The translations under genes were made by a program, and so were the position numbers. A stretch of 64,000 nucleotides of DNA. Source: Utricularia gibba. Lineage: Eukaryota; Streptophyta; Magnoliopsida; Lamiales; Lentibulariaceae. Below are positions 1-56,864 of the stretch, in pieces (within the stretch, counting starts at the first letter, position 1; each line of letters opens with the position of its first letter). The notes under the pieces were generated by a model, which had not been told where the DNA came from, ran no database searches, and saw only the letters and a list, made by a program, of their open reading frames with translations. The stretch is from assembly GCA_002189035.1 (NCBI GenBank), contig NEEC01000024.1:558001-622000 (forward strand), given 5' to 3'.

Positions 1-409
1 GCGGCGAGGTATTCGCTGTGGGCTTCAGTCATGCTTGGTGTTGGCTGCAAGCCCATTTCCATAATTTCCAAGAAGAGGGGAGAGCAACTCACCCATAATC
101 CCCATGTATATGGCAAGTAATATTTGCTTAGATTTTCTTTCTGCCCTGTAATGCAAGGCGAGGAACTGGGGACTGCACGAAGACCGAACCACCTCATGTT
201 TATAACTTTCATATCTTGCCCTGTTATCTTGTGAAGTAGCAAAATTTGCATGAATCTGGAATCATGGAGGGGAAAGCTTATCTCATGAGGTCCAGCAAGA
301 CTGGAAGAAGTCAGTCAAGTTCGCTAACACCGATATCTCAAGTAGATGCTTTCGAAGCCAAAGTGAATACCTATGGGCGATACTGCTAGTGCTGGCTGAT
401 GCATGAGTG
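1..409 (-). other. 3' flank of the SDN5-like gene
   Basis: This stretch lies downstream (minus sense) of the exonuclease stop codon and probably includes its 3' untranslated region. I see no second reading frame with recognisable homology and no repeat boundary here. Confidence 0.5.
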
Positions 410-3402
410 CTAGTGCTTGATGCCTACAAAACACAAACCTACTTCGGCTTGAGCTTGCAGCTCTTCAAGCGCTTTAACCATCTTTTCCCGAGAAAATGCA
501 CTTTCCGTTTGCTTAGACAGCATACCCCTTAATCTTCAAGAAAAGGGATTGGTTAGTCAGTCACAGCATCACATGGAAGAAAATGCAAATAACAAGATCC
601 ACATGTAAACATTACTTTTGTACAAGTGCAGTGTCCCCATGGCCGGTTGCGATAATGAGCATGGCATTGGGCGGTAGACATGAATACAGTGCTTTGACTC
701 GGCTATTGATTCTGCGCAGAATGGCCTCCAACTCTGAAGGGACGACGGATGCAATTTTTTTCTTTCGGCAATCACTGTTGCATGTTAGCGCAGAAATCAT
801 CTCTGCGATCTTTGTGCTGAGTTTTCCATCATCATTGGCTCGTTTGCAATAATAAGAATACAATTCAGAGAATTGTGTCCAGACAAATTCCACCCTTCCA
901 TTTTTTACCTATGAATTACCACATCAAGGATTAATCATTTTTTCTATATACCTTCTAAGTTAGTTGAAAAGAAAGAAATCCAACCTCTTTGCCAGCTTTT
1001 AGAAGAGCTTCATCATCAGAAGATACAGGGATTGCATGAGATGCCTCAGAGGCATAGCGTCTTACCACAAAGACATCGTCAACCAGGGATGATGTTTTAC
1101 CAGAATCACTAAACACCTGCAGAAGTTTCCTTCTCGTGGAAGAGGATGCGGGAAAGCCAAAACCCGGTCCTAAATCATGGATAAGATGAGAAAGAGGAAA
1201 ATCAAGAATTTGAGGGATTAGTTAGCGATTAGTTAGCGATTAGTTTCCATGAAAAACGAAAATAAAAAATAATTACCATGCTTAAACTTTAGTAGTGCAA
1301 GATCCATTGCAGCTCTGGCATCATCAACACTATCATGCCCATTCTCAGAGTTCTGTATTTCTCTGGAAAGAAGCCTCTTGGTTAGCACACGAAGTGCTGG
1401 TTTGTAAGAACGACCATTTGGGGGGCTATATAAAATGGCAGTATCAATCACCAAATTGTGGCGAATCTTTAAAGCAATCAAATCATTTTCTAATGAATGT
1501 CCAACAAGGAAGGTCTCTTTGTGAACCAGCCCAAGAAAATCTTCCTAAAACAAGGGCCAGAGTCAACTCTAGAAAATGCAGCTTAAGGTTGATTATAACT
1601 GAAAGTAAGAAGATCAGAACCTGCGCATCTTGAAGAGTGGTTGTCACACCTTCCATCATCTCACGAGTAATTCCACTATATCTGAACAATCACGGCTATA
1701 AAAGTTAAAAAATTATTCCACATTCAGCGTGCTTCTCACAGCTGAACCCCCAGTTAAGGCAGGAGAACATTAAAATAATATTCAAAGGTAAGGCATGAAT
1801 TAGTACCTCGTGTTATAGTCAGTTATATCATTGGATGGCTTAACAAGTTTATCTAATAATACCTGCAAATTTAGAAAGACTACCAAGTTAGACCATGCAT
1901 ATAATTTAGTTGAAAAACATTCAAACATGATAAAAAACGCTGGTAATGATCGGAGGAGCATGAGTTACCTGTCCTGTGGTGTTGACAACGGTAATTCTTG
2001 TAAGTTCAAAACCCTCTTTTGTAACGCACTAATGAAACCAACAAAAAAACACTATCGCTCACTTTGGCACACTAGAACATCTGAACTCAGAAAAATGTAG
2101 AAGCATGAAAACTATAAAGTTTGGATTTTAGGCACACATAATTCACATTATGATTCGAAGACTCACCATTTCACAGTCAAGAGCCAAAATATCATGTGAT
2201 GGAGTCCCTGATGTAGCAGGACGCGTAGAAATAAAATCTGCAAGAGAACATTTAAGAACAATATATAACGAAAAGCCAAGGAAGCGAACAATGCAATACC
2301 TGGATTGCTGAGGTAACCATTATCTTCCAACTGTTTAGGAGTAAGAGCATAATACATAATTGGAAATGGCATCTCCTCCGTCAAGAGAAGACCAGGTGAA
2401 TCCCTTGGACCCTTGTCAGGAGATACTGCTTTAAGTACAACAATTTCAGTGGGCATTAAAAAAAATGACCTCCTTATTGATGCCAACAGCTTAGAGATTC
2501 AAACACCTTGAGAAAACATCTGGAAAGACATCTTTCGCCCATTTTCTACTTCATTTCTCTTTCTCTTCACTCTGCAGGTAAGAAGTGCATCTACAGTTTG
2601 CATTCCATCTGATGCACAGCTAGGATATTTACAACGGAAAGACACAGGCTTCATTAGCACAAGAATCCATTAACTGGAAGATATCCAGGGAAGCATCCGC
2701 AGTGCATGAAAGGAACTGAAAGCTAACCTGAGAGCTAAAACTGCACGCGGAATTCCACAGCATTCTCTAAAGCCCTTTAGAACCTTGGACTGTGATAAGT
2801 ACAAGGCTGCATCAAGACCAGGCACATATAGCATAACGACTTTGGGAATCAATGGCTTATTCTGAGGAAAAAGCATCAATCACCATGAGCGACTTTACAA
2901 AGTAATGATGATAATAAAACCAAAAAAACAAACGGAAATGGTGCTAAAAATACATGCTTACTTTAACAAAAATCCATGAAGGCATGAAGCCGTTGGCAAG
3001 CACCCAGGTGGCGAGTTCTTGGACGTCCTGGCAGCAAGTGCATAAACAAGAAGAGTCAAGCTAACGTGAAATGGCGAAAGAATAAGGAAATTTGGCACAG
3101 AAAATAAAAGGTCGCACCTGAATATTCAACGTCGTACTCGCTGTTGCTTCCTTCATAACAACATCGGCCCTTGCCTGCAGAAGATGATTAAGGCCACAAA
3201 CTCCAAGTAAAATAAGTAATGAGAAGCCACAGTTGCGGATTTCTAACACCACTTGCGGTATTTTTTCCACCAGCCAATCCAGAACCCATTGCCACACCCC
3301 AATGTGAAGAAGAAAGAAGTTCACCTCTGGTCCGTAAACATCATAGAAGGGCTTGTCAATGATGTCATCGTTATGGCCGATTTCTTGGGCCTCGGAAGTC
3401 AT
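410..3402 (-). CDS. SDN5: SDN5-like DEDDh 3'-5' exoribonuclease, 14 exons
   Basis: Exons read from GT/AG junctions that keep one frame: 3402-3325, 3174-3118, 3027-2962, 2861-2728, 2619-2507, 2428-2300, 2237-2167, 2028-1969, 1862-1807, 1681-1621, 1544-1277, 1169-985, 908-616, 533-410. They total 1695 bp, or 564 residues plus stop. The exonuclease fold carries all five DEDDh positions: LALDCEM (Asp213, Glu215), HSLENDL (Asp296) and GHDSVDDAR (His345, Asp350). A C-terminal extension of about 200 residues follows, ending CFVGIKH. From memory the length and both ends match Arabidopsis SDN5 (At5g25800, about 567 aa). Family members trim 3' ends of RNAs, and SDN1-3 degrade miRNAs; the substrate of this copy is inferred. 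The start is the first ATG after an in-frame stop. No disabling change is seen. Exon edges 2428 and 908 are the least certain. Confidence 0.9.
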
Positions 3403-3890
3403 CCCCCGCGAATTGGACTGGCAGCCAATCGGAGAGGGAATGAGCTCTATCCTTCAGCTACTTGTGTGTTCCTAACTTGGGAAAAGCACGGAGACGGAAT
3501 CGGCAGAACCCCCTCTTCCCTGTCTTCCTTTGGGCGTTTTCACGGGGGTGAGATGGGCTTTGAGTTCGGAATCCGGATGACTAATTTTTGGGTTTTTGCA
3601 CACCACAGTTTTGAAACCGATTAATCACTTACATCAAGTTATATTTGATTATTTGTAAAGTAGCTTAATTTTAAGGATAATGTACAAAACAAATTCAACA
3701 TATTAAACAAATTATAGTTAATATTCGTAATAAACATATTAACTATTATAGAGTTGAAGGTGGGGCTCAAATTATAGTTAAACAATAGTTTATAGTTAAA
3801 CAAATTTGGCATGATAGTTAAACATTTTTACAATATTAACCATAGTGGGGCTCACTAAGCGGATTCAAAGTGGGATAATAGAGATAAAAT
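3403..3890. other. AT-rich spacer upstream of the SDN5-like gene
   Basis: It probably holds the promoter and 5' UTR of the exonuclease gene next to 3402. From about 3660 it turns AT-rich with several near-copies of a TTATAGTTAAACAA motif (about 3707-3840) and two GTGGGGCTCA boxes. No coding signal is seen. Confidence 0.45.
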
Positions 3891-4257
3891 AGGGAAAATC
3901 CTAATGTCTCAATCCCTTTGCACAAGACTTGAAGAATAACTCAGCAGTATGCACAAGAGAAGTCTATGACCATTATGCATTCAAGTCATTCATAATGAAA
4001 AAAAAATGGTTTACTCACCAAGAAACAAGGGCTATGTAGCTTGCGCAAGGGACAAAAAGTAAACAGCATGCCAAGAAACAACATAGAAACAAGCATACCA
4101 AAATTCTAATTTACAATAACTATCTCGAAAAAATAATACCAAAAACAGATGCCTAGGTTCCAGCAAAACATAAAATGCAAGGAGTTGATTAATGAAATAT
4201 ATGCCAAATTTCGATTTTTTTTTAAAGGTATGAAAAACAATCTAAAAAGTAAACTAT

Positions 4258-4279
4258 TCCCCCCCTCCCCCCACACTTA
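4258..4279 (-). other. Polypurine tract of gypsy copy 1
   Basis: The minus strand reads AAGTGTGGGGGG followed by AGGGGGGG, just downstream of the integrase ORF. This is the expected position and composition for the plus-strand DNA primer of a gypsy element. The 3' LTR expected to follow is not recognisable. Confidence 0.7.
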
Positions 4280-4362
4280 AATGACATCTTGTCTTCAAGA
4301 TGGGTAGAAACACTTACCTTTCGTCAGGTGCTCTGATGTATCTAATAGTGTGGAATTTTTCC

Positions 4363-5733
4363 TCAAAAGAATCCGTTGCACCTATGCTTATTGAAGAGAA
4401 AGAAGAAAAGAAAAACAATGCAAGAGAAAATCGAAAATAAAATAACTAAAAGGGAAATCACTTGTTTTTGTAATGGCAACAAGTAAACTATAGATGCTTT
4501 CTCATCAAGGTGGGGGTGGTTAGAGATGTCCACTGGAACATGCAATGTGCCCATGGAAGATTTTACCCCTTCATGAAACCGTTTCAATCTCTTAATATTT
4601 ACCGTAAATTCTCCATGGTCAGGATGTGTGATGAGGACTACTCCACTGGGATAGATTTTCTTGATGGTGTATGGTCCACGCCATCTAGACTTGAGCTTTC
4701 CTGGAAATAAACGAAAACGAGAATTAAATAACAAAATTGGGCCACCTTCCACCAGGTCCTTGCGCAAGTGACTATCATGCCAAGCCTTTGTTTGTTCCTT
4801 GTACAGTTTTGCATTTTCGTAGGCACTCATCCTTAGCTCGTCCAGCTCTTGGAGTTGCAAGATCCTTTGCTCTCCAGCAGCCTTGGCATCCAAATTTAAT
4901 TCTTTGATAGCCCAATATGCCTTGTCCTCTAATTCCATAGGCAAGTGACAAGCTTTCCCATAAACCAAACGATAAGGGGAGGTCCCTAAGGGAGTCTTAT
5001 ACGCTGTGCGATAAGCCCATAAAGCATCAGTTATTTTGGTTGCCCAATCCTTGCGGGTTTTGGCCACCGTACGCTCCAGAATCCCCTTCAATTCCCTGTT
5101 AGTTACCTCCACTTGTCCGCAGGTTTGTGGGTGATATGGGGTTGATGCCCTGTGTCCTACTCCATATTTGCGCAAGAGCTTCCGGAATTCTCTTTCAATG
5201 AACTGTTTTCCTCCATCACTTATGACGTATCTTGGGGCTCCAAACCTGGGTAGAATGATCTGTTTGAATAGCTTAATTACGGCTCTTCCATCAGCTACTG
5301 GAACCGCAATAGCTTCTGCCCATTTTGAGACATAATCCACCGCCACAAGAATTTGAGTGTTGCCATAAGAAGATGGAAAGGGTCCCATAAAATCCAGCCT
5401 CCAAACATCGAAAATTTCCACCTCTAGGATATATGTCATGGGTCCGTCATCTCTCCTGGAAATAGAACCCGAATGCTGACACAGTTCACATGCTTGAACA
5501 AATGCCCTCACATCATGATTCATGGTGGGCCAATAAAATCTAGATTGAAGAATTTTGAAGAGTGTTTTTGATGTTGCTGCATGCCCTCCATATGGTGATG
5601 AATGACAATGCCAAATAACGTCCATTACCTCCTCTGGTAGTAGGCATCTTCTGATAATTCCATCCACACAACGTTTGAAAAGCAGAGGTTCTTCCAGAAA
5701 TAATGCTTCGCTTGCACAAGGAAGCGCTTCCAC
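4363..5733 (-). pseudogene. Gypsy integrase (copy 1), C-terminal part of pol
   Basis: A 456-codon open stretch holds most of the integrase. A His-His/Cys-Cys zinc region begins [13 protein letters not shown] and ends CELCQH. The catalytic triad is visible in WRLDFMGPF (Asp), VISDGGKQF (Asp) and [12 protein letters not shown] (Glu). A conserved [12 protein letters not shown] block follows. The ORF overlaps the RNase H frame by about 110 bases in another frame, which shows a frameshift between the two. The triad is intact but translation as part of pol would fail, so I treat it as decayed. Its role in the source element is insertion of cDNA into the host chromosome. Confidence 0.85.
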
Positions 5734-6926
5734 TGGTTGAAGTTCAGATTCTGGGGAAAGACTCCTCCAACGAGATAATTGACAAAATCAGCATACCATG
5801 GCAGATTGCCATCTTGGACAGCAAGGATACGTTCTTGGGGGAAAGAATCATCAATGGGTAACTCCCCCACACTTGTTTCAAGCTGTAGGCGTGACAAATG
5901 GTCAGCCACTCCATTTTCCTTGCCCTTCTTGTCACGAATTTCCAGATCAAATTCTTGGAGGAGCAGTATCCATCTTATCAATCTGGGTTTCGATTCCTGC
6001 TTGCTCAAAAGATATTTCAAGGCAGCATGATCGGTATGAACAATTGCCGGCAACTCCTTTTCTATGGTTGTGTAGTTCCTTTGGGCTGCAGTGAGAGTTT
6101 TGCTAGCATAATAAATCACATAATTTACCTTGTCTTTTTTCTGTCCAAGAACAGCCCCAACAGCACAATCACTTGCATCACACATCAGTTCAAATGGCAG
6201 GGTCCAATCTAGTGGTTGAAGAATGGGTATAGTAATAAGAGCTTGCTTCAGCGTGTTGAAGGCGTGCACACATTGTGCATCAAAACAAAAATACGCGTCT
6301 TGCGCAAGCAGCGCTGTTAGTGGGTGAGAAATGTGCGAAAAATTAGCAATAAACCTCCTATAAAATCCTGCATGCCCCAAGAAGCTTTTGATCCCTTTTA
6401 CCGTAGTTGGTGCTGGTAATTTTTCAATCACCTCGATTTTTGTTGGATCCACTTGAATGCCTTTGGAAGAAATGTGATGTCCAAGCGCAATGCCTTCTTC
6501 AACCATAAAATGACATTTCTCCCAATTGAGTACCAAGTTGCACTCAATACACCTCTCCAAAATGATGCCTAAGTTCTGCAAACATGAATCGAAATCAGTT
6601 CCATAAACAAATATATCATCCATAAATACCTCCATGATCTTCTCCACGTGTTCTGAAAAAATAGCTGTCATGCAACGCTAAAAAGTTCCAGGAGCATTGC
6701 ACAAACCGAATGGCATTCTCTTGTATGCAAAGGTGCCAAAAGGACAAGTAAATGTGGTCTTGTGTTGATCTTCCGTATGAATTGGAATCTGAAAATATCC
6801 GGAATAACCATCAAGGTAACAATAGAAAGCTTGGTTACTTAACCTTTCCAGAATTTGATCAATAAATGGCAATGGGTAATGATCCTTTCTGGTGGTATCA
6901 TTGAGTTTCCAAAAATCTATACACAT
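5625..6926 (-). pseudogene. Gypsy reverse transcriptase and RNase H (copy 1)
   Basis: RT begins around 6926 (CIDFWKLNDTTRKDHYPLP) and continues after an in-frame stop near 6677 into a 348-codon stretch. The catalytic box is [10 protein letters not shown]. RNase H follows with [28 protein letters not shown], and [12 protein letters not shown]. The end runs into the integrase in a shifted frame. The stop falls where the second copy in this window (45.4 kb) has an uninterrupted codon, so it is a local mutation. The product in the source element copies RNA to DNA and removes the RNA strand. Confidence 0.88.
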
Positions 6927-6929
6927 CCT

Positions 6930-8084
6930 CTAGCCAGTGACCTTGCGCAAGGAGATGAGGTCTCCCTTCTCGTTTCGTGTCACTGTCATGCCTCCTTTCT
7001 TTGGTACGTAGTGCATGGGGCTAACCCATTGGCTGTCTGAAATAGAGTAGATGATATCAGCATCTAAAAATTTCAAAATTTCATTTTTAATCACCTCCTT
7101 TAGTATAGGATTCGCTCGCCTTTGTGGTTGCACAATTGGTCTTGCTTCAGCTTCCAAATAAATTCGATGGGTGCAAAATTGAGGATTAAGTCCTTTTAAG
7201 TCGTCCAAGGTGTACCCAATGGCTTGTCTGTGTTTGCGCAAGACATCCAACAGCATTTGGGTGTGGTATTCATTCAATCCTGCGTTAACAATCACGGGGT
7301 AAGTGTGATCATCCTCAAGAAATTCGTACCTCAATGATGGTGGCAGCTTCTTCAACTCAATTTTTCCTCCAGCATCAAGTTCCTTTTTTGTTAGCCGAGC
7401 CATCATTGGTGTGTCATTTGGAGTGTCTTCTTTTTCATCCTGCAGAAGATTTACTTCCTGAATCTCGTGCAGAAAAACTGCTTGCGCATGCTCCTGCGTA
7501 ACAGCATCTTCCGCTTCCCCTTGCGCAAGCTCGTCGCAGTCAAATTGCTTCATTGCTTTATCAACATTGAACTCCAATTCCTCTTCTCCGAATCTGAGTG
7601 TCAATTTCCCTGCTCTAACATCAATTAAAGCTCCTATGGTTGCCATAAATGGTCTCCCGAAAATGATTGGCACCTCCACATCAAGTGCCATATCCAAAAC
7701 AACAAAATCATAAGGAACAAAATATTTTCCAATTTTTTCCAGTACGTTTTCTACCACTCCTTCAGGATTCTTCATGGATTTATCAACAAATACCAATTGA
7801 ATTTTTGTTGTTCTCAGCTCTTCAAGATTCAGTGCTTTGAATAAAGAATAAGGCATCAAGCTGATACTTGACCCAAGATCATATAAGCACTTCTCAAAAT
7901 TGCTTCTTCCAATGATACAAGGGATTGAAAAAATTCCAGGATCTGCATGCTTTTGAATTAGGCCTTGTGTAAGAACCGTGCTGCATTGCTTGGATAATTC
8001 AATAACAGCATCATTCTCAATCTTCCTTCGATTGGCCAGAATATCCTTCAAGAATTTCGCATAAGTGGGCATTTGCAACATCAC
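6930..8084 (-). pseudogene. Gypsy aspartic protease and linker (copy 1)
   Basis: A 384-codon stretch carries a retropepsin-like core: YDLGSSISLMP (catalytic Asp in a D-L-G setting), VLDMALDVEVPIIFGRPF and IDVRAGKLTLRFG. The C-terminal third leads into RT with a PKKGGMTVTRNEKGDLI motif and ends at a stop at the first RT residues. The D-L-G in place of D-T/S-G is usual for this plant lineage. In the source element the protease cuts the Gag-Pol polyprotein. Confidence 0.82.
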
Positions 8085-10261
8085 ATCAATGAATGGGGAT
8101 GTTCACATGAAGAGTTTTCAGCATCTCCAGAAACTTGGAATATTGTTGATCCACTGATCATTTGGCCTATCTCTATGGATAAGGGATTGGAGGATTATAA
8201 GAAGGTGGAGATACGTACACTGGAACATCCAACAATTTGACTGCTTGCACAGGGGCTGCTGCTGTTGCACTCTGCATCCCACTTCTCGTTGTTATAGCCT
8301 TACATTCAACAGGATTCTTCTCTGGTTGACTTGGGAGCCTCGAAGCCTTGTGGGTTTGAGCAGCATTGTTCATCCAACTGTCCAGGATGTGTGTAGTCAT
8401 ACTGAGTTGCTCCACACGCTCACTCACCTTTTTTAGTTGCTCTATTACTTCTTTATTCACTCCTTCTTGCTTTTCCATGAATTGCCCTAGCATATCTCGT
8501 AAGAATGGGCGTTGGGGCTGCTACTGGTTCTGATTCTGGGTTTGCCAAGTGTTGCCCCGATTTCCCCAGTTGTTCCCTTGCGTAGGCACAGAGGCTCCTT
8601 GTGCAAGTTTTCCCTAAAAGTTCACAAAATTAACATTCATACCTTCGTCTTCTGCCTCACTCTCTGTCTTCTCTGAGGCTGCTTGGACTTGAGCAATGAC
8701 AGGCTGGAGTTTGTTGATTTTATCGTCTAATTTTTGCAATGTTTCGGTAATCTTTGAGACAGTAGTGTCACGTGGGTTGTCCCGAACTCCAGTTTTCGAA
8801 TTCCTTGCTGGTTGAGACCATCGTGCCTATCGTTTTGCAAACTCATTAATTAGTTCCCAAGCCCTTCTAGGACTTACATGGTCCGGGGGTCCAACACCCG
8901 CATTAAGCAGTCCCTTTGCTTGCGCAGTCAATCCATCATGGAAGCACATGATCATAGCAGTGGGGCTGAGTCCATGCTTATCCGTGACTCATGTAATTTC
9001 CTTAAATCTCTCCCAAGCTGCTGCTATTCCTTCTCCTTCATCCTGTGAAAAATTGGTGATCTCAAACCTAGTGTTAGAATACTTTGTGGGTTCAAAATAT
9101 TTGTCCAAAAATGCATCCTCCAATTCTTCCCAAGTGTAAATAGAGTTGGGTGTCAATGAGTCTAACCATCTCCTTGCTGATCCTCATAACAAAAATGGAA
9201 ATAAACGTAACCTGATTGCGTCGTCAGAGACTCCTCGTTCCACCACCATGTCACAATACCTGAGAAAAATTGCAATGTGTTCTTCGGGACCCTCACCGGG
9301 TTCTCCACGAAATGGGCTTTGTTGCACCATGGTGATCAATGAAGGCTGGAGTTGGAACCTTTGCACGTTGATGGCTGGTGCTGAAATTGGACCAGGCTTC
9401 CCTGTGTGTCAAAAATTATCATCTAAAGGGATTTCAGCCCAGGGATCAACAGCAAATCTGTTAGCATTCTGCTCCATACGCACATACCTGTCTCTTCTTG
9501 CGCGATGGTTCTTCGCTTGCGCAGGTAGTTCCCTGCATACCGCTTCTGGTCCTTCCTCTTCGCTAGATGTTTCTTCAGCACGCACATTCCTCCTGGGCAT
9601 TTGCCTTTGTCTTCCATGATTTTCCCATTCAGGATTTCCTACAAATTCATACCTCTGCTCGTGATGGGGATTTTGGTTGTCACGTCGGTTTACTCCATTG
9701 TAACCCCAACGGTCTTCTCCTTCCCACCTTGGAGGAGAGTTCACTCCTCGCCTTGGAGTTCGTGGGTTGCTGTTCTGTTTGTCATGATGTTGAGGTTCAA
9801 AAGCCCTGTTTTCTTGCCATCCTTGTGCAAATGGTTTTCATTTGCACCTGCATGCCTGGGTCTGATAATGCACCCGTGGGCCCGTCTTGGAGAGGTTCCT
9901 TGCCTCGATTTGGTCTCAATCTTGCTGCTGTTCGTTCTTGTGCAGGCTCTTGATCGGATCCATCGCTACGCCTTCAATATACCCCTGCATGATTAGCAGC
10001 AGATCTGCCTATACCTGTTCCTTCATTTAACAGCAAGGCTGATCTAGTTGCCCTGTTTGGCTGGTGTCTTGGCGTCCGTGCTCATTCACTATCTGGTTTG
10101 GACATCACCACATAGTCCTCCTCATGTCCAAAATGCCTTCTAGACATGGTTTCTCTGCGTTGCGCTTGCGCTTGACGACTTTCCAACTTAATTCTCTGAC
10201 AGGTCCGGTCAATTTCCAGGTCTAGCGTGTACAGTTCGGTTGAAGCCTTATGCCTGCGCAT
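8085..10261 (-). pseudogene. Gypsy gag (copy 1)
   Basis: The most likely start is ATG at 10261 (MRRHKASTELYTLDLEI), 121 bases inside the primer site. Fragments at 9744-9409, 9366-9184, about 9150-8640 and 8493-8173 keep gag signatures (VQQSPFRGEPGEGPEEHIA, SARRWLDSLTP, CFHDGLTAQAKGLLN) but are separated by stops and shifts. The plus-strand ORFs here are antisense shadows of gag. In the source element Gag packages the RNA into particles. Copy 2 (48-50 kb) has matching pieces. Confidence 0.8.
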
Positions 10262-13686: not shown

Positions 13687-13864
13687 TTAGGCCTCGTTTG
13701 TTAGGTGGGTTTAGCCCTCTAAACCCTTGGGTAAAAAGTATTGTATGTGTTTGTTGGGGTGGTTTAGTAAAACACAAGGGTTTGTATTATCCCGAATTAA
13801 ACCTGCAGCTACTGGTTTCACAAAACCCACGTGTGAGGTGGGTTTCTCAAAACCCACCTCACAC
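13687..13864. mobile_element. Left end of a PIF/Harbinger-like element with hairpin
   Basis: TTA (13687-13689) is followed by GGCCTCGTTTGTTAGGTGGG, the look of a PIF/Harbinger terminal repeat next to its 3-bp TWA target site. A perfect 15-bp stem GTGTGAGGTGGGTTT / AAACCCACCTCACAC with a 4-base loop sits at 13831-13864. The transposase relic begins about 370 bp downstream. No matching right end was found, so the element is probably truncated. Confidence 0.5.
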
Positions 13865-14234
13865 AAATACAACTTGGTCGATAATACCCTTCTACTCCAT
13901 AAGCAAATTCGCAACAGTAAATCTGTGTATTTGTTCATCCTCTTCAACAAAAATCTGTTGGGTTTTTGCAGGTACATGGTGAGTGAATTCGAATTCTGAT
14001 ATTTCGACGAAAACCCATACTTCAATTTAAGCCAAGAGTACTTATTTTTTGTTTCGCATATGATGGAGTCGGTTTTTTTTTTTCCGAAAATTGCAGTAGG
14101 TTGTGCATTGCTTATTGAGGCTGTTGCAATGGTTTCAAAGAAGATTATTTTGGCTGCCCTTACTGCGGCACATTGCGTTGGTCAGTATCTATGTATTATG
14201 CGAGTTATGATTGTTATAATGTTGCATTTCTGTT

Positions 14235-15414
14235 GTACACCAACCGATAGGAGAATTCGGTTCTCATACCGAGAAAAGATACCGTGACAAAAAGAACATT
14301 TGACTGCCTTGTTATCTGATTCAAGGAGTGCTTGTCTTGAAAACTTACGATTAAGTGCAGATGTCTTCAACAAGTTATGTTATGTTCTTCGAAGTAATGG
14401 TAGACAAACCACTTCAAGGTATGTCGATGTTCCAGGGCAAGTTGCATTGTTTTTGGATATTTTGGGTCATCACAGGAAAACAAGGCAACAGAAATTTGAA
14501 TTCATGCGAAGCAGCTGGACATTGTCCAAATATTTCAATGTGGTATTGTCGGGGATGATGTCATTGCACTAAAATTTACTTCAGATTTTTCGAGGTATGC
14601 CAGAAGATTTTTCTTCGTAGTTGTGGATGTGCAACGTGTATTCTGCATGCTGTAACTTTCTGCTCTATTTTTCAGAATTGCTTGGGTGCATTGGATGGTT
14701 CATATTTTCAGGTGAAAGTCAAGAATCAGGATAAACCAAAGTGGAGGAATCGTAAAGGAATCGTGTCCACTAATGTGCTAGGAGTGTGTGATGATAAGCT
14801 CATGTTCATCTATTTGTTGTCCAGTTGGGAGGGATCCGCTACTGATAGTAGGGTGCTGCGAGATGCAATTGGTCGACAAAGAGCATTCACTGTACGCAAA
14901 GGTAGGTGCTTACAATGTGTAGAAGTCCATAGTTATGATTACCTTTAATGTATTCCATTTTTTTGTAGAGCATTATTACTTGTGTGATAATGGCTACATA
15001 AACGTAGAGGGATTTCTAGCACCCTACAGGGGTGTCGGGTCCATGGCTCCACAGAATGCGAAGAAATATTTCAACATGCGGCATGCTTCTGCAAGGAATG
15101 TTATTGAGAGGGCATGGGGTCTAATGAAAATGAGGTGGGGTATTTTATGAAGTTATAGTTTTTATCCTATTAAAACACAAATTCGTATCATACTCGCATG
15201 TGCCCTGCTTCACAATTTTATTCGGCGAGAAATGCCAATTGATCCATGGGAAGAGGTCATTCCGGAAGAATACCGCAATCCGGATTCATAGGAATATGAA
15301 GATGATGAACATATTTCCTCCATAGGAAACTCAGAGGAGTGGACACAGTGGCAGGATTCAATGGCTGAGATAATGTTTGCGCAATGGAGAGAGACCACAC
15401 GAAGAAGGGTATGA
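14235..15414 (+). pseudogene. PIF/Harbinger transposase (DDE_Tnp_4 type) relic
   Basis: Recognisable blocks run in order: RRIRFSYREK, FNKLCYVLRSNG, VALFLDILGHHRKTRQQ, NCLGALDGSYFQVKV, KWRNRKGIVSTNVLGVCDD, WEGSATDSRVLRDAI, YYLCDNGYINVEGFLAPYRG, RNVIERAWGLMKMRWGIL and ACALLHNFIRRE. The acidic triad appears in LDGSYF, CDNGY and NVIERAW. Two introns fit: one ending just before NCLGALDG (TTTTTCAG at about 14676) and one after TVRKG (GTAGGT at about 14903). Stops break it: after REKIP, a TGA after RWGIL (15148-15150) and a TAG near 15290. Related host-domesticated genes exist, but the stops argue against function. The final TGA is at 15414. Confidence 0.8.
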
Positions 15415-15774
15415 GATGTACTAATGAATCTTGATATTTTATTAGTTTGGCTTAAAGACATTTTATTTCATTTTCCAATAGTTAATAAGCATTGTGTTGT
15501 GTTGTATTCATATTGTGCAAACAAATCAGTTATTCTAGACATGATTTGCTTCTTACATTGGGTTATTTCCCACGGTGAACTGCCTTATTTATGCTGGACT
15601 GTTGTCACAGCAAATGTGATACAGTCACTGGAAACAAGAATTTGGAGTGCCTGGAAAGATATGATAGGGTTGAAGGATGCTTCATGTTTCCACACACTGT
15701 TGACTTATACATCTGGGTGCAACTATTGCATGCTCTACACTATCTACATGTACATTGGAAGAATTGTATTCTAG
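15415..15774. other. Spacer between transposase relic and tandem repeats
   Basis: No supported coding signal. One segment near 15640 (GGAGTGCCTGGAAAGATATG) resembles the repeat unit that follows and may be a decayed extra copy. Confidence 0.35.
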
Positions 15775-16600
15775 GCACTGTGAATATCTGCTCTCGGTGC
15801 CTGGATGAAATGTGTTCCTAGCACCGCAATACACCGGTATCAGTGCCTGGAAGTCCAGTGTACCAGGCACCGCAAAAATTTTGTGTCGGTGTCTACAAGA
15901 CACCCCTTTTAGGCACTGAAAAACGCCGCTCTCAATGTCTGAGAGACGTGCGTCCCAGGCACTGCAGAATGCTGCTCTCGGTGTCTGAAAGACACGTTAT
16001 TTTAATATTTTCATTAGCATTCGATTCTTAGGTATACTTTGGATCGAGAGTTAATATAAATTTAAAATAAACAAATATCCACTCGATTCGAATGATACCT
16101 AGGGATCGAATTCTAATAAAAATATTAAAATATTGTGTCTTCCACACACCGAGAGCGGCATTCTGCAGTACCTGGGACACATGTCTCTCAGACACTAAGA
16201 GCAACGTTTTGCAGTGCCTACAAGGGGTGTCTTGTAGACACCGAGACAAAACTTTTGCAATGCCTGGTACACTGAGACCAAAATTTAAGATTATAAATTA
16301 CAGAATGTTTCCTTTATGGGTTTAAATTAGTTCGAGATTACATAAGATTTTTTTAATCTTATACATATGAATTTATTTAAAATCGTCTACTTTTTTACGT
16401 TAATTAAGTTTGATTTTAATTTTATTAACTATTTTAATACCTAATTAATTGATATATATCATATTTATTTAAATTAAAGTAAAAGGCTGCTCTCAGGGCC
16501 TGGGAGACATGCGTTCCAGGCACTGCCGAATGCCGCTCTCGGTGCCTGGAAGACACGCTGTAGACACTGCAACCTTTGAAATAGGTGCCTGGAGCAATCA
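15775..16600. repeat. About 46-bp tandem units arranged as a foldback
   Basis: Five direct units of roughly 46 bp run from about 15775 to 16000, each with a GGCACTGC...CTCTCGGTGTCTG...AGACACG...CCCA pattern. The last units reappear in inverted order at about 16133-16274, and two more direct units lie at about 16488-16600. Units carry their own dyads, such as GGTGTCTACAAGACACC (perfect 7-bp stem). The function is unknown. It lies just downstream of the PIF/Harbinger relic but has no shared terminal sequence with it. Confidence 0.8.
15856..16274. repeat. Large imperfect inverted repeat, arms about 195 bp
   Basis: Left arm 15856-16052 and right arm 16082-16274, with a spacer of about 29 bp. By eye about 27 differences in 190 aligned bases, roughly 86% identity. 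A transcript in either direction would fold into a long hairpin. Arms extend beyond the tandem units into an AT-rich stretch containing ATTCGAT and CTAGGTAT, so the inversion involved more than the units. Confidence 0.8.
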
Positions 16601-16804
16601 CGGGCCGGAATGAATATTAGGTCTCGCGTATTTGAGCCTTATAACAAACCCTCTGGCCCAGTCCTCACCCTCCTTCACCACGCACCTAATCGCCGCACAC
16701 TGCAAAGCACGGCACACCGTCCCCACCTTAACCGCATGGTCCCTCCCCCATTTGCTTTCCTTTGTCCTGTCTATCTCAAGAAATGCTTACTTCCAAGAAA
16801 CTCC
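16601..16804. other. Short unassigned stretch
   Basis: About 200 bp of mixed sequence between the repeat units and an LTR fragment. Nothing recognisable. Confidence 0.3.
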
Positions 16805-17545
16805 TGTTAGTGTATGTGTTCTAGAGACAATCAACTCATTGGAAAATCTTATCTTTTGATATTTACTTTGAATTGTGATCAAATTTATATCATTGATAAA
16901 ATCCTCTACTTGATCTATGTGCTATAGAAATTATGATGAGATCATAATGTGAGATTCTTCAAGCACTCATGATCAAGTTAAATCTCCCTGGCTAGAGTAT
17001 TTGTGAAATGAGGATATCACAAATACGGATAAGCTGGCACACATTGAGTTCCCTAAATTGTTTAGGCAATGGTTCTCACAATTGATGTAATGAGATTACT
17101 AGAACCTATGTGTAGGTGTCGATTAGAGAATCGATTCACTGGATGACTCATCTTCGAGATGCTACTATGGGAAGCTAACCAAGTGTCAGTAGCAAGATCT
17201 CGAATACGATAGCCGTGCAAATAAGCTTAGACTTGAGGTCAACAAAGTTATCTTGATCTTAAGCTCACATTTTCGCTCATTGTCAATGGGAGCCTAACCA
17301 TGGCTTGCCTAGTATGGATGAGTAGGGATGTGACTCCTTAAGGTTGGAGATAGTTGATTGATCAATAAAGGATTCATCACTCATGTTAGCAATGAGATCA
17401 TATCTCAAGTAATTGCATCAAAACCTAACAGTAAGTCCTGGGCCCAGGGTAATGACACTCGAATTGTTTGAGTAGGTCATTGAGTGTGAGTGTTTGAATG
17501 CAATTATAAGTTTAATACATCAGAAAGACACACACCCATGTTCGG
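16805..17545. repeat. Partial copy of the TGTTAGTGTATGTG LTR family
   Basis: It begins TGTTAGTGTATGTGTTCTAG and follows the solo LTR at 30381-31881 closely for about 740 bp, up to a shared ACACACACCCATGTTC. At 17545 similarity stops sharply and different sequence continues. It is either truncated or a variant with another second half. The same family occurs inverted at 55410-56859. Confidence 0.75.
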
Positions 17546-30375: not shown

Positions 30376-31886
30376 GTTGTTGTTAGTGTATGTGTTCTAG
30401 AGACAATCAACTCATTGGCAAATCTTATCTTTTCATATTTACTTTGAATTGTGATCAAATTCATATCATTGATAAAATCCTCTACTTGATCTATGTGCCA
30501 TAGAAATTATGATGAGATCATAATGCGAGATTCTACAAGCATTTGTGTTCAAGTTAAAAACTCCCTGGCTAGACTATTTGTGAAATGAGGATATCACAGA
30601 TACGGATAAGCTAGCACACATTGAGTTCCCTAAACTGTCTAAGCAATGGTTCTCACAATTGATGTAATGAGATTACTAGAACCTATGTATGGGTGTTGAT
30701 TAGAGAATCGATTCACTGGATGACTCATCTTCGAGAAGATACTATGGGAAGCTAACCAAGTGTTAGTAGCAAGATCTCGAATTGACAACCGTGCAAGCAA
30801 GCTTAGACTTGAGATGAACAAAGTTATCTTGATCTTAAGCTCACATTTTCGCTCATTACTAATGGGAGCCAAACCATGGCTTGCCTAGTATGGATGAGTA
30901 GGGATGTGACTCCTTAAGGTTGGAGATAGTTGATTGATCAATAAAAGATTCATCACTCATGTTAGTGATGAGATCATATCTCAAGTAATTTCATCAAAGC
31001 CTAACAGTAAGTCCTGGGCCCAGAGTAATGACACTCGAATTGTTTGTGTAGGTCATTGAGTGTTAGTGCTTGAATGCAATTATAATTTCGATAAATCAGA
31101 AAGACACACACCCATGTTCTGGTACCGAATGAGATATAAGTATGATGAAAGCTGTTCATTGCATGGTGGCTGGTCATGGAAAGGCTCAATCAGTTCACCG
31201 GATTATTCTTACATCTTGGGGATCATGATATGTTGCTAGACATCACTCATGGTCAATAATGATGGATTTGATTGATTAAGAGTTAATTAATAAATCCATT
31301 ATTATGGCCTTGATTGAAGAAGCCTATAGGGTCACACATAATAGTGGAGCCACTCATCGATATAAAATAGAATGACACAATTAAATGAGATGTAATTGGT
31401 AAAGTGGATAAATTAAATAGAGAGTTATTTTGAGATTAATATTGATTAAACTCAAAATAAAAGATTTTATATAGATAAGATTCGGAACATATACATATCT
31501 CCACAAAATAAGATATTTACGGAGATGTGATCTGATATGTTACCATATATCTATCAAAAGATTTAGATCTACATATCGGTTTTCAGCACTTTCGTGCTCT
31601 CTGAGATTGATCCACAAGGGGGCGATTTTCTCTACTAGCATCTGAGGAATTCAACCAGCATCCATCAACCTTGAGAAGGTTATCGATGGAGCGCTCCACG
31701 TGTGGATACCATATAGGTCGTCTGCTATTGGCGGTAGGTGAATAACGGAGTCCTCTAAAAGGTATTTTCAGTATCCCTATATCTGACATATACTGTATTC
31801 CAAGATCTGCGATTGGGGTTTCTAAAAAATTTATAAATTTTGCTGCTTTTATGACATACGATGTCTACGAGAAACCCAACAGTTGT
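30376..31886. mobile_element. Solo LTR, target duplication GTTGT
   Basis: The LTR is 30381-31881 (1501 bp), TGTTAGTGTATGTG to GAGAAACCCAACA. GTTGT flanks both sides perfectly. Related copies: 55410-56859 (inverted, complete) and 16805-17545 (partial). It cuts the 5' part of the hAT transposase. Confidence 0.88.
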
Positions 31887-55404: not shown

Positions 55405-56864
55405 AATACTGTTGGGTTTCTCGTAGACATCATATGTCTCAAAAGCAGCGGAATTTTAAAATTTTTGAGAAACCCCCAACACAGATCTTGGAATATGGTA
55501 TAAATTAGACAAAGGGATTCTGAAATATCTTTCAGATGACTCCGTTGTTCACCAACCGCCATTAGCAGACGGCCTCCATGGTATCCACATGTGGAGCACT
55601 CCGTCGATAACCTTCTCAAGGCTCTTGAATGCTGATCGAATTTCTCAGGTGCTAGTTGAGAAAAACGCCTCCTTGTAGATTAGTCTCAGAGAGCACGAAG
55701 ACCTTGGAGCACATCTCAAGATCTGAATCTTTTTTATAGATATTTTTTGACATATCAAATCATATCTATATGAGATCTTTTATTTTGAGTTTAATCAATA
55801 TTAATCTCAAAATAATTCTCTATTTAATATATCCACTTTACCAATTACATCTCATGTAATTGTGTCATTCTATTTTATATCGATGAGTGACTCCACTATT
55901 GTGCGTGACCCTATAGGCTTCATCAATCAAGGCCGTAATAATGGATTTATTAATTAACTCTTAATTAATCAAATCCATCATTATCGATCATGAGTGATGT
56001 CTAGCAACATATCATGATCCCCAAGATTAAAGAATAATCAGGTGAATTGATTGAACCTTTCCATAACCAGCCACCTTCCAATGAACAACTTTCATCATAC
56101 TTATATCTCATTCGGTACTAGAACATGGGTGTGTGTCTTTCTGATGTATCGAACTTATAATTGCATTCAAGCACTAACATTCAATGACCTACTCAAACAA
56201 TTCGAGTGTCATTACCCTGGGCCTAGGACTTACTGTTAGGTTTTGATGCAATTACTTGAGATATGATCTCATTGCTAACATGAGTGATGAATCCTTTATT
56301 GATCAATCAACTATCTCCAACCTTAAGGAGTCACATCCCTACTCATCCATACTAGGCAAGCCATGGTTAGGCTCCCATTGACAATGAGCGAAAATGTGAG
56401 CTTAAGATCAAGATAACTTTGTTGACCTCAAGTCTAAGCTTATTTGCACGGCTATCGTATTCGAGATCTTGCTACTGACACTTGGTTAGCATCCCATAGT
56501 AGCATTTCAAAGATGAGTCATCCAGTGAATCGATTCTCTAATCAACACCCACACATAGGTTCTAGTAATCTCATTACATCAATTGTGAGAACCATTGCCT
56601 AAACTGTTTAGGGAACTCAATGTGTGCCAGCTTATCCGTATTTGTGATATCCTCATTTCACAAATACTCTAGCCAGGGAGATTTAACTTGATCATGAGTG
56701 CTTGAAGAATCTCACATTATGATCTCATCATAATTTCTATAGCACATGGATCAAATAGAGGATTTTATCAATGATATAAATTTGATTCAAATTCAAAGTA
56801 AATATCAAAAGATAAGATTTTCCAATGAGTTGATTGTCTCTAGAACACATATACTAACAAGTAC
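55405..56864. mobile_element. Solo LTR, inverted relative of 30381-31881
   Basis: The LTR is 55410-56859 (1450 bp), TGTTGGGTTTCTCGTAGAC to CACATATACTAACA. Flanks AATAC and AGTAC match at 4 of 5 bases. It is colinear with the inverse of 30381-31881 along its whole length. Confidence 0.85.

Follow-up and report, generated by a model that had tools for sequence, protein, structure and literature searches.

How a long foldback comes to lie within a stretch of tandem repeats, and whether it represents a mobile element, a source of small RNA or something more mundane, is the question raised by one locus in the window (the whole 64,000-nucleotide stretch of Utricularia gibba DNA analyzed here). The answer depends on what the foldback is built from, what encloses it, and what the same site looks like elsewhere in the genome.

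Composition and folding of the foldback

A repeat search bore out both the location of the foldback and the arms given in a preliminary description of this DNA: each inverted arm measures 193 nt (15856-16048 and 16082-16274), and the two are 87% complementary, contain 46-bp units and stand 33 nt apart. That description also read the locus as five direct units, the same series inverted, and two direct units. The direct starts (15756, 15802, 15848, 15894 and 15940) and the resumption at 16481/16501 agree with this reading; the inverted part, however, does not repeat that series over its whole length. Positions 15996-16134 form an AT-rich palindrome that bears no relation to the 46-bp unit, 16282-16483 is AT-rich, is not built of the unit and constitutes a separate dispersed repeat, and the inverted share of the array amounts to only ~140 bp (three units, at 16135-16180, 16181-16226 and 16227-16272). 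The features of the locus and its surroundings are listed below, where FB62 is the name given here to a dispersed repeat of 62-bp units.

13690-16804, plus strand: PIF/Harbinger-type element, 5' fragment of ~3.1 kb; similarity to other copies starts at 13687-13690 and stops at 16804, with the terminal inverted repeat GGCCTCGTTTGTTAGGTGGGTTTAG, preceded by TTA, at 13690
13690-13714, plus strand: 5' terminal inverted repeat, an inverted copy of which closes the 3' ends of complete elements, flanked by TTA/TAA
14288-15410, plus strand: degenerate transposase frames with stops and frameshifts; DDE_Tnp_4 match at 14559-14948 (E = 1.3e-5)
15756-15995, plus strand: ancestral direct array of five 46-bp units, each an imperfect AGGCAC...GTGCCT palindrome; uninterrupted in relatives without the foldback
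15996-16134, no strand assigned: AT-rich palindromic core, a shortened fragment of FB62 (62-bp units in both orientations); at least 131 genome matches, with longer versions at the same site in copies L015, L016 and L043
16135-16285, minus strand: the element's own 46-bp array copied in inverted orientation, with three units and part of a neighboring one; 88.6% identical to 15856-15995 over 140 bp, the arms grouping apart from the relatives' arrays
16282-16483, plus strand: ~200-bp fragment of another dispersed AT-rich repeat, from 40 genome matches and flank alignment
16481-16557, plus strand: direct 46-bp array resumed, duplicating 15920-15996 (77 bp, 84%); one stretch of relative L025 aligns to both
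16805-17543, plus strand: 739-bp repeat at the cut-off of the window copy, also at 30381-31119 (plus strand) and 56121-56859 (minus strand)

The suggestion that a read-through transcript would form a long hairpin was upheld by RNA folding, in which 15856-16274 reached a predicted -281.1 kcal/mol versus -95.9 +/- 5.5 for 100 dinucleotide shuffles (z = -33). Given this value and the recurrence of the block elsewhere in the genome at 92-94% identity, a chance origin is excluded.

The enclosing transposon

PIF/Harbinger DNA transposons encode an ORF1 with a Myb-like domain and a DDE transposase, and duplicate a TTA target (PMC2836001). By its sequence, the element enclosing the foldback is a truncated transposon of this type, with a TTA-flanked terminal inverted repeat and broken DDE transposase frames. 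The preliminary description held that no known terminal repeat explains the foldback; this was mistaken, and the transposon context was missed. Complete copies elsewhere in the genome measure 5.4-7.9 kb and carry the terminal inverted repeat GGCCTCGTTTGTTAGGTGGGTTTA at both ends with 0-2 mismatches, between target-site duplications of TTA/TAA (L014), TAA/TAA (L013 and L015) or TTA/TTA (L010), of which the window copy retains only the 5' TTA. The L014 transposase matches PF13359 at 8.4e-14 and PF04827 (Plant_tran) at 6e-5, and the PF13359 match in the window is that listed above; a downstream frame in the window resembles the L014 frame that gives the 8.4e-14 match to DDE_Tnp_4 (PF13359), and carries the C-terminal part. 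A Myb/SANT ORF1 is encoded on the opposite strand of the complete copy L013 (PF12776, 8.5e-11); the truncated copy in the window lacks this region. The 3' end of the element was not found within the window, as similarity halts at 16804 where the 739-bp repeat starts. The family resembles described PIF/Harbinger elements (PMC2836001) in a terminal repeat beginning GGCCTCGTTTGTT, 3-bp TTA/TAA duplications, DDE_Tnp_4 and an opposite-strand Myb/SANT ORF1. It departs from them in the additional contents of complete copies (a 46-bp array inside the element, a 147-bp array, foldback blocks and further coding fragments), and in the truncation and broken frames of the window copy.

The extra coding fragments lie between the two transposon genes in complete copies (3096-4686 of the L013 element, C1:5814822-5816412). 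The fragment in L014 has a gypsy-type Transposase_28 domain (PF04195, 6.5e-10), and other pieces resemble what we take to be an FCP1/NLI-type phosphatase, for which no Pfam match was obtained in the middle-region frames of complete copies. One extra piece has 128 genome matches, and may have been captured or be part of a larger repeat family. Within the window, the three copies of the 739-bp repeat are 93-97% identical, start with TGTTAGTG, and are possibly long terminal repeats or solo copies; separately, frames on the minus strand at 4363-8520 resemble, on inspection by eye, the polyprotein of a gypsy-type retrotransposon, with stretches like integrase, reverse transcriptase and protease.

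Origin of the foldback

The same hairpin block is present in six copies, the window's included, and a longer version in three more. In the assembly of ~100 Mb, a 901-bp query block was recovered at 92-94% identity from contigs C328, C505, C2 (twice) and C1, and the longer variants from C1, C413 and C328. The five derived copies compared are 93-96% identical to one another, and identity to them is 92-93% for L015 and 89-91% for relative R25; the low figures for R30 include an unalignable stretch. Relatives L025-L030 align on both sides of the site without the ~485 bp, their direct 46-bp array being continuous (with a different number of units in L028 and L029, and unrelated sequence left of the array in L030). 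Because these related elements have an uninterrupted direct array, the foldback is a derived composite of ~485 bp. A single stretch of L025 aligns to 2276-2353 of the L013 element and also to 2845-2922, so that a 77-bp piece of the array flanks the block on either side.

Within and among copies, left arms match right arms at 87-96% identity, as compared to 59-88% for the relatives' arrays, and the two intermingle in a tree that sets the relatives on a separate branch with 93% support; by these comparisons the inverted arm is a copy of the element's own array. In most copies the arms have drifted to 88-91% identity. Those of L011 (C505:250670-251572, minus strand) are 96% identical, the highest among the copies compared, which suggests conversion between arms and that such later conversion also shaped them.

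The core matches the dispersed AT-rich family of 62-bp units, in opposite orientations and with a GC-richer center, and the 139-bp core of the window is probably an internally shortened form, since L015, L016 and L043 are longer at the same site. A second fragment of this repeat occupies ~5117-5499 of the L013 element. It is adjoined at 5500-6015 by a 147-bp tandem array sharing the AGGCACC...GGTGCCT motif, and in R26 and R30, both relatives, that place is taken by ~600 bp of unrelated AT-rich DNA. Elsewhere, the 43-kb contig C349 (L020, positions 1-7000) carries tandem satellite-like repeats of ~2.4 kb, each with 62-bp AT-rich palindromic units, with self-alignment offsets of 2,449 and 4,836 and matches ~2.4 kb apart along the contig; a ribosomal spacer was considered for this array and set aside, since the 7 kb examined gave no match in Rfam at gathering thresholds. 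The foldback element Tetris of Drosophila virilis has tandem units in its arms and has given rise to satellites (PMC4079207). The core family is like Tetris in its tandem 62-bp units in opposite orientations, and its occurrence in the C349 array recalls the Tetris-derived satellites; the comparison of this putative foldback family with Tetris does not extend to the inverted 46-bp arms, which are not arms of the core family. The piece at 16282-16483 is cut short at its right end relative to other copies, and apparently also at its left; it was rejected as an intact mobile element as other copies of its family run past the right end.

We consider it probable that the foldback arose inside elements of a PIF/Harbinger subfamily as a non-coding rearrangement, by fold-back copying with template switching, and was then spread by transposition. 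The order of events is readable owing to the relatives with an empty site and to the mirrored junction described below, and both this order and the replication mechanism we infer as follows. The relatives show the ancestral state to be a direct 46-bp array downstream of the transposase gene. To this, in one progenitor, a fragment of a dispersed AT-rich palindromic repeat would have been joined. Folding back through the palindrome, a nascent strand would then have made a reverse copy of the junction and of ~140-150 bp of neighboring array; a switch to part of another dispersed repeat and a return to the array would have followed, with the 77-bp duplication as the result. Such a pattern is that of template switching in the course of break repair or of stalled replication. 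Multiplication of the scrambled element by transposition, now evident from several copies, came after the rearrangement, and the window copy is cut off on its 3' side at 16804.

A mirrored junction, GAAGACACG followed by TT or AT and then ATTTTAATATT, is found at both arms in eight of the nine copies (in L010 a motif scan recovered the left junction and missed the right), and two independent breakpoints would hardly coincide in this manner. Identity between the arms is 81% in the core and 88.6% in the array, and this greater divergence of the core is expected if the palindrome came first. Where the 200-bp piece exits into the array, the 3-nt AAA is common to both, although microhomology of this length is weak evidence when taken alone. 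The 77-bp duplication could instead be unit-number variation, the array being tandem, and neither a core without the inverted arm nor an inverted arm without the 200-bp fragment was found as an intermediate among the copies. Rearrangements of DNA transposons by template switching and gap filling have been documented (PMC8277862), as has microhomology-mediated break-induced replication (PMC2621351). The patchwork of fragments, the inverted copy, the short shared junction bases and the amplification by transposition afterwards are features in common with these; here, unlike in those cases, the parts joined are repeats and not exons of host genes, and the inversion is centered on a palindrome that was probably already present.

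That the 485-bp block, or the hairpin, is instead a mobile foldback transposon inserted into the PIF/Harbinger element is in our estimation quite improbable. Membership of the core in a dispersed family with 62-bp units in opposite orientations speaks for such an insertion, as does the second fragment of that family in L013, and to this extent the earlier proposal that the locus is the end of an uncharacterized foldback transposon was correct about the derivation of the center. The foldback is nonetheless internal to an element with its own terminal repeats and target duplications, and does not itself place long inverted repeats as termini beside a target duplication. Outside this transposon family, genome matches cover either the core or the 200-bp piece and not the whole block, no solo unit of the foldback with its own duplications was found among them, and no short target duplication was seen at the block; furthermore, the inverted arm belongs to the host element's own array and the right end of the block is a fragment of another repeat rather than a terminus. 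An assembly artefact, which the preliminary description named as a way its reading could fail, is a negligible prospect: nothing was found in its favor, and it is excluded by independent copies with the same junctions on several different contigs at 92-94% identity.

Possible function and significance

Most likely, the foldback itself serves no function. Silencing of a transposon family by hairpin-type small RNA has a parallel in Mu killer of maize, and a model in which the present hairpin works as a source of small RNAs by which its family is regulated or silenced would draw on the very stable predicted fold and on its retention in several copies, with 96.6% of cells paired. We regard this as quite unlikely. 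In an alignment of six copies and 182 pairs, both partners have changed in only four (three in L011, with its apparently converted arms, and one in the window copy, as read from the alignment), and a conserved RNA was rejected on this count. Only 6 of 500 shuffles reached the covariation score and 16 the paired percentage; relatedness without constraint, or arm conversion, can however give the same signal, and the six-copy alignment gives no convincing indication of selection for pairing. Moreover, the arms have drifted in most copies as given above, Rfam yielded only sub-threshold microRNA or small-RNA matches (best microRNA matches 24-41 bits, against gathering thresholds of 74-140), and sister lineages persist without the hairpin. 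A more specific form, in which hairpin copies would act as an internal silencing trigger, with transposase read-through producing ~195-bp double-stranded RNA and thence small RNAs directed at 46-bp arrays family-wide, hairpin-free sister lineages included, we hold to be very unlikely.

It is also unlikely that the 46-bp array serves as a binding region for ORF1 or the transposase, with the inverted copy raising or altering binding. The array is ancestral to the family, and AGGCACTGCA-type motifs are enriched in complete elements (15-25 sites versus 3-5 in shuffles), mostly in the two arrays. These sites are internal, however, ~2 kb or more from the ends with no enrichment near the terminal repeats, and internal tandem repeats need no function; the predicted transposase-binding role of the motif finds little support.

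In sum, the long hairpin is real but mostly ordinary, being part of a known kind of transposon whose array was probably scrambled by an accident of DNA copying. It illustrates clearly how an inverted duplication can be seeded within a DNA transposon by a palindromic repeat and the element later multiplied, and the hairpin, were it transcribed, could act as a natural trigger for the silencing of a PIF/Harbinger family.
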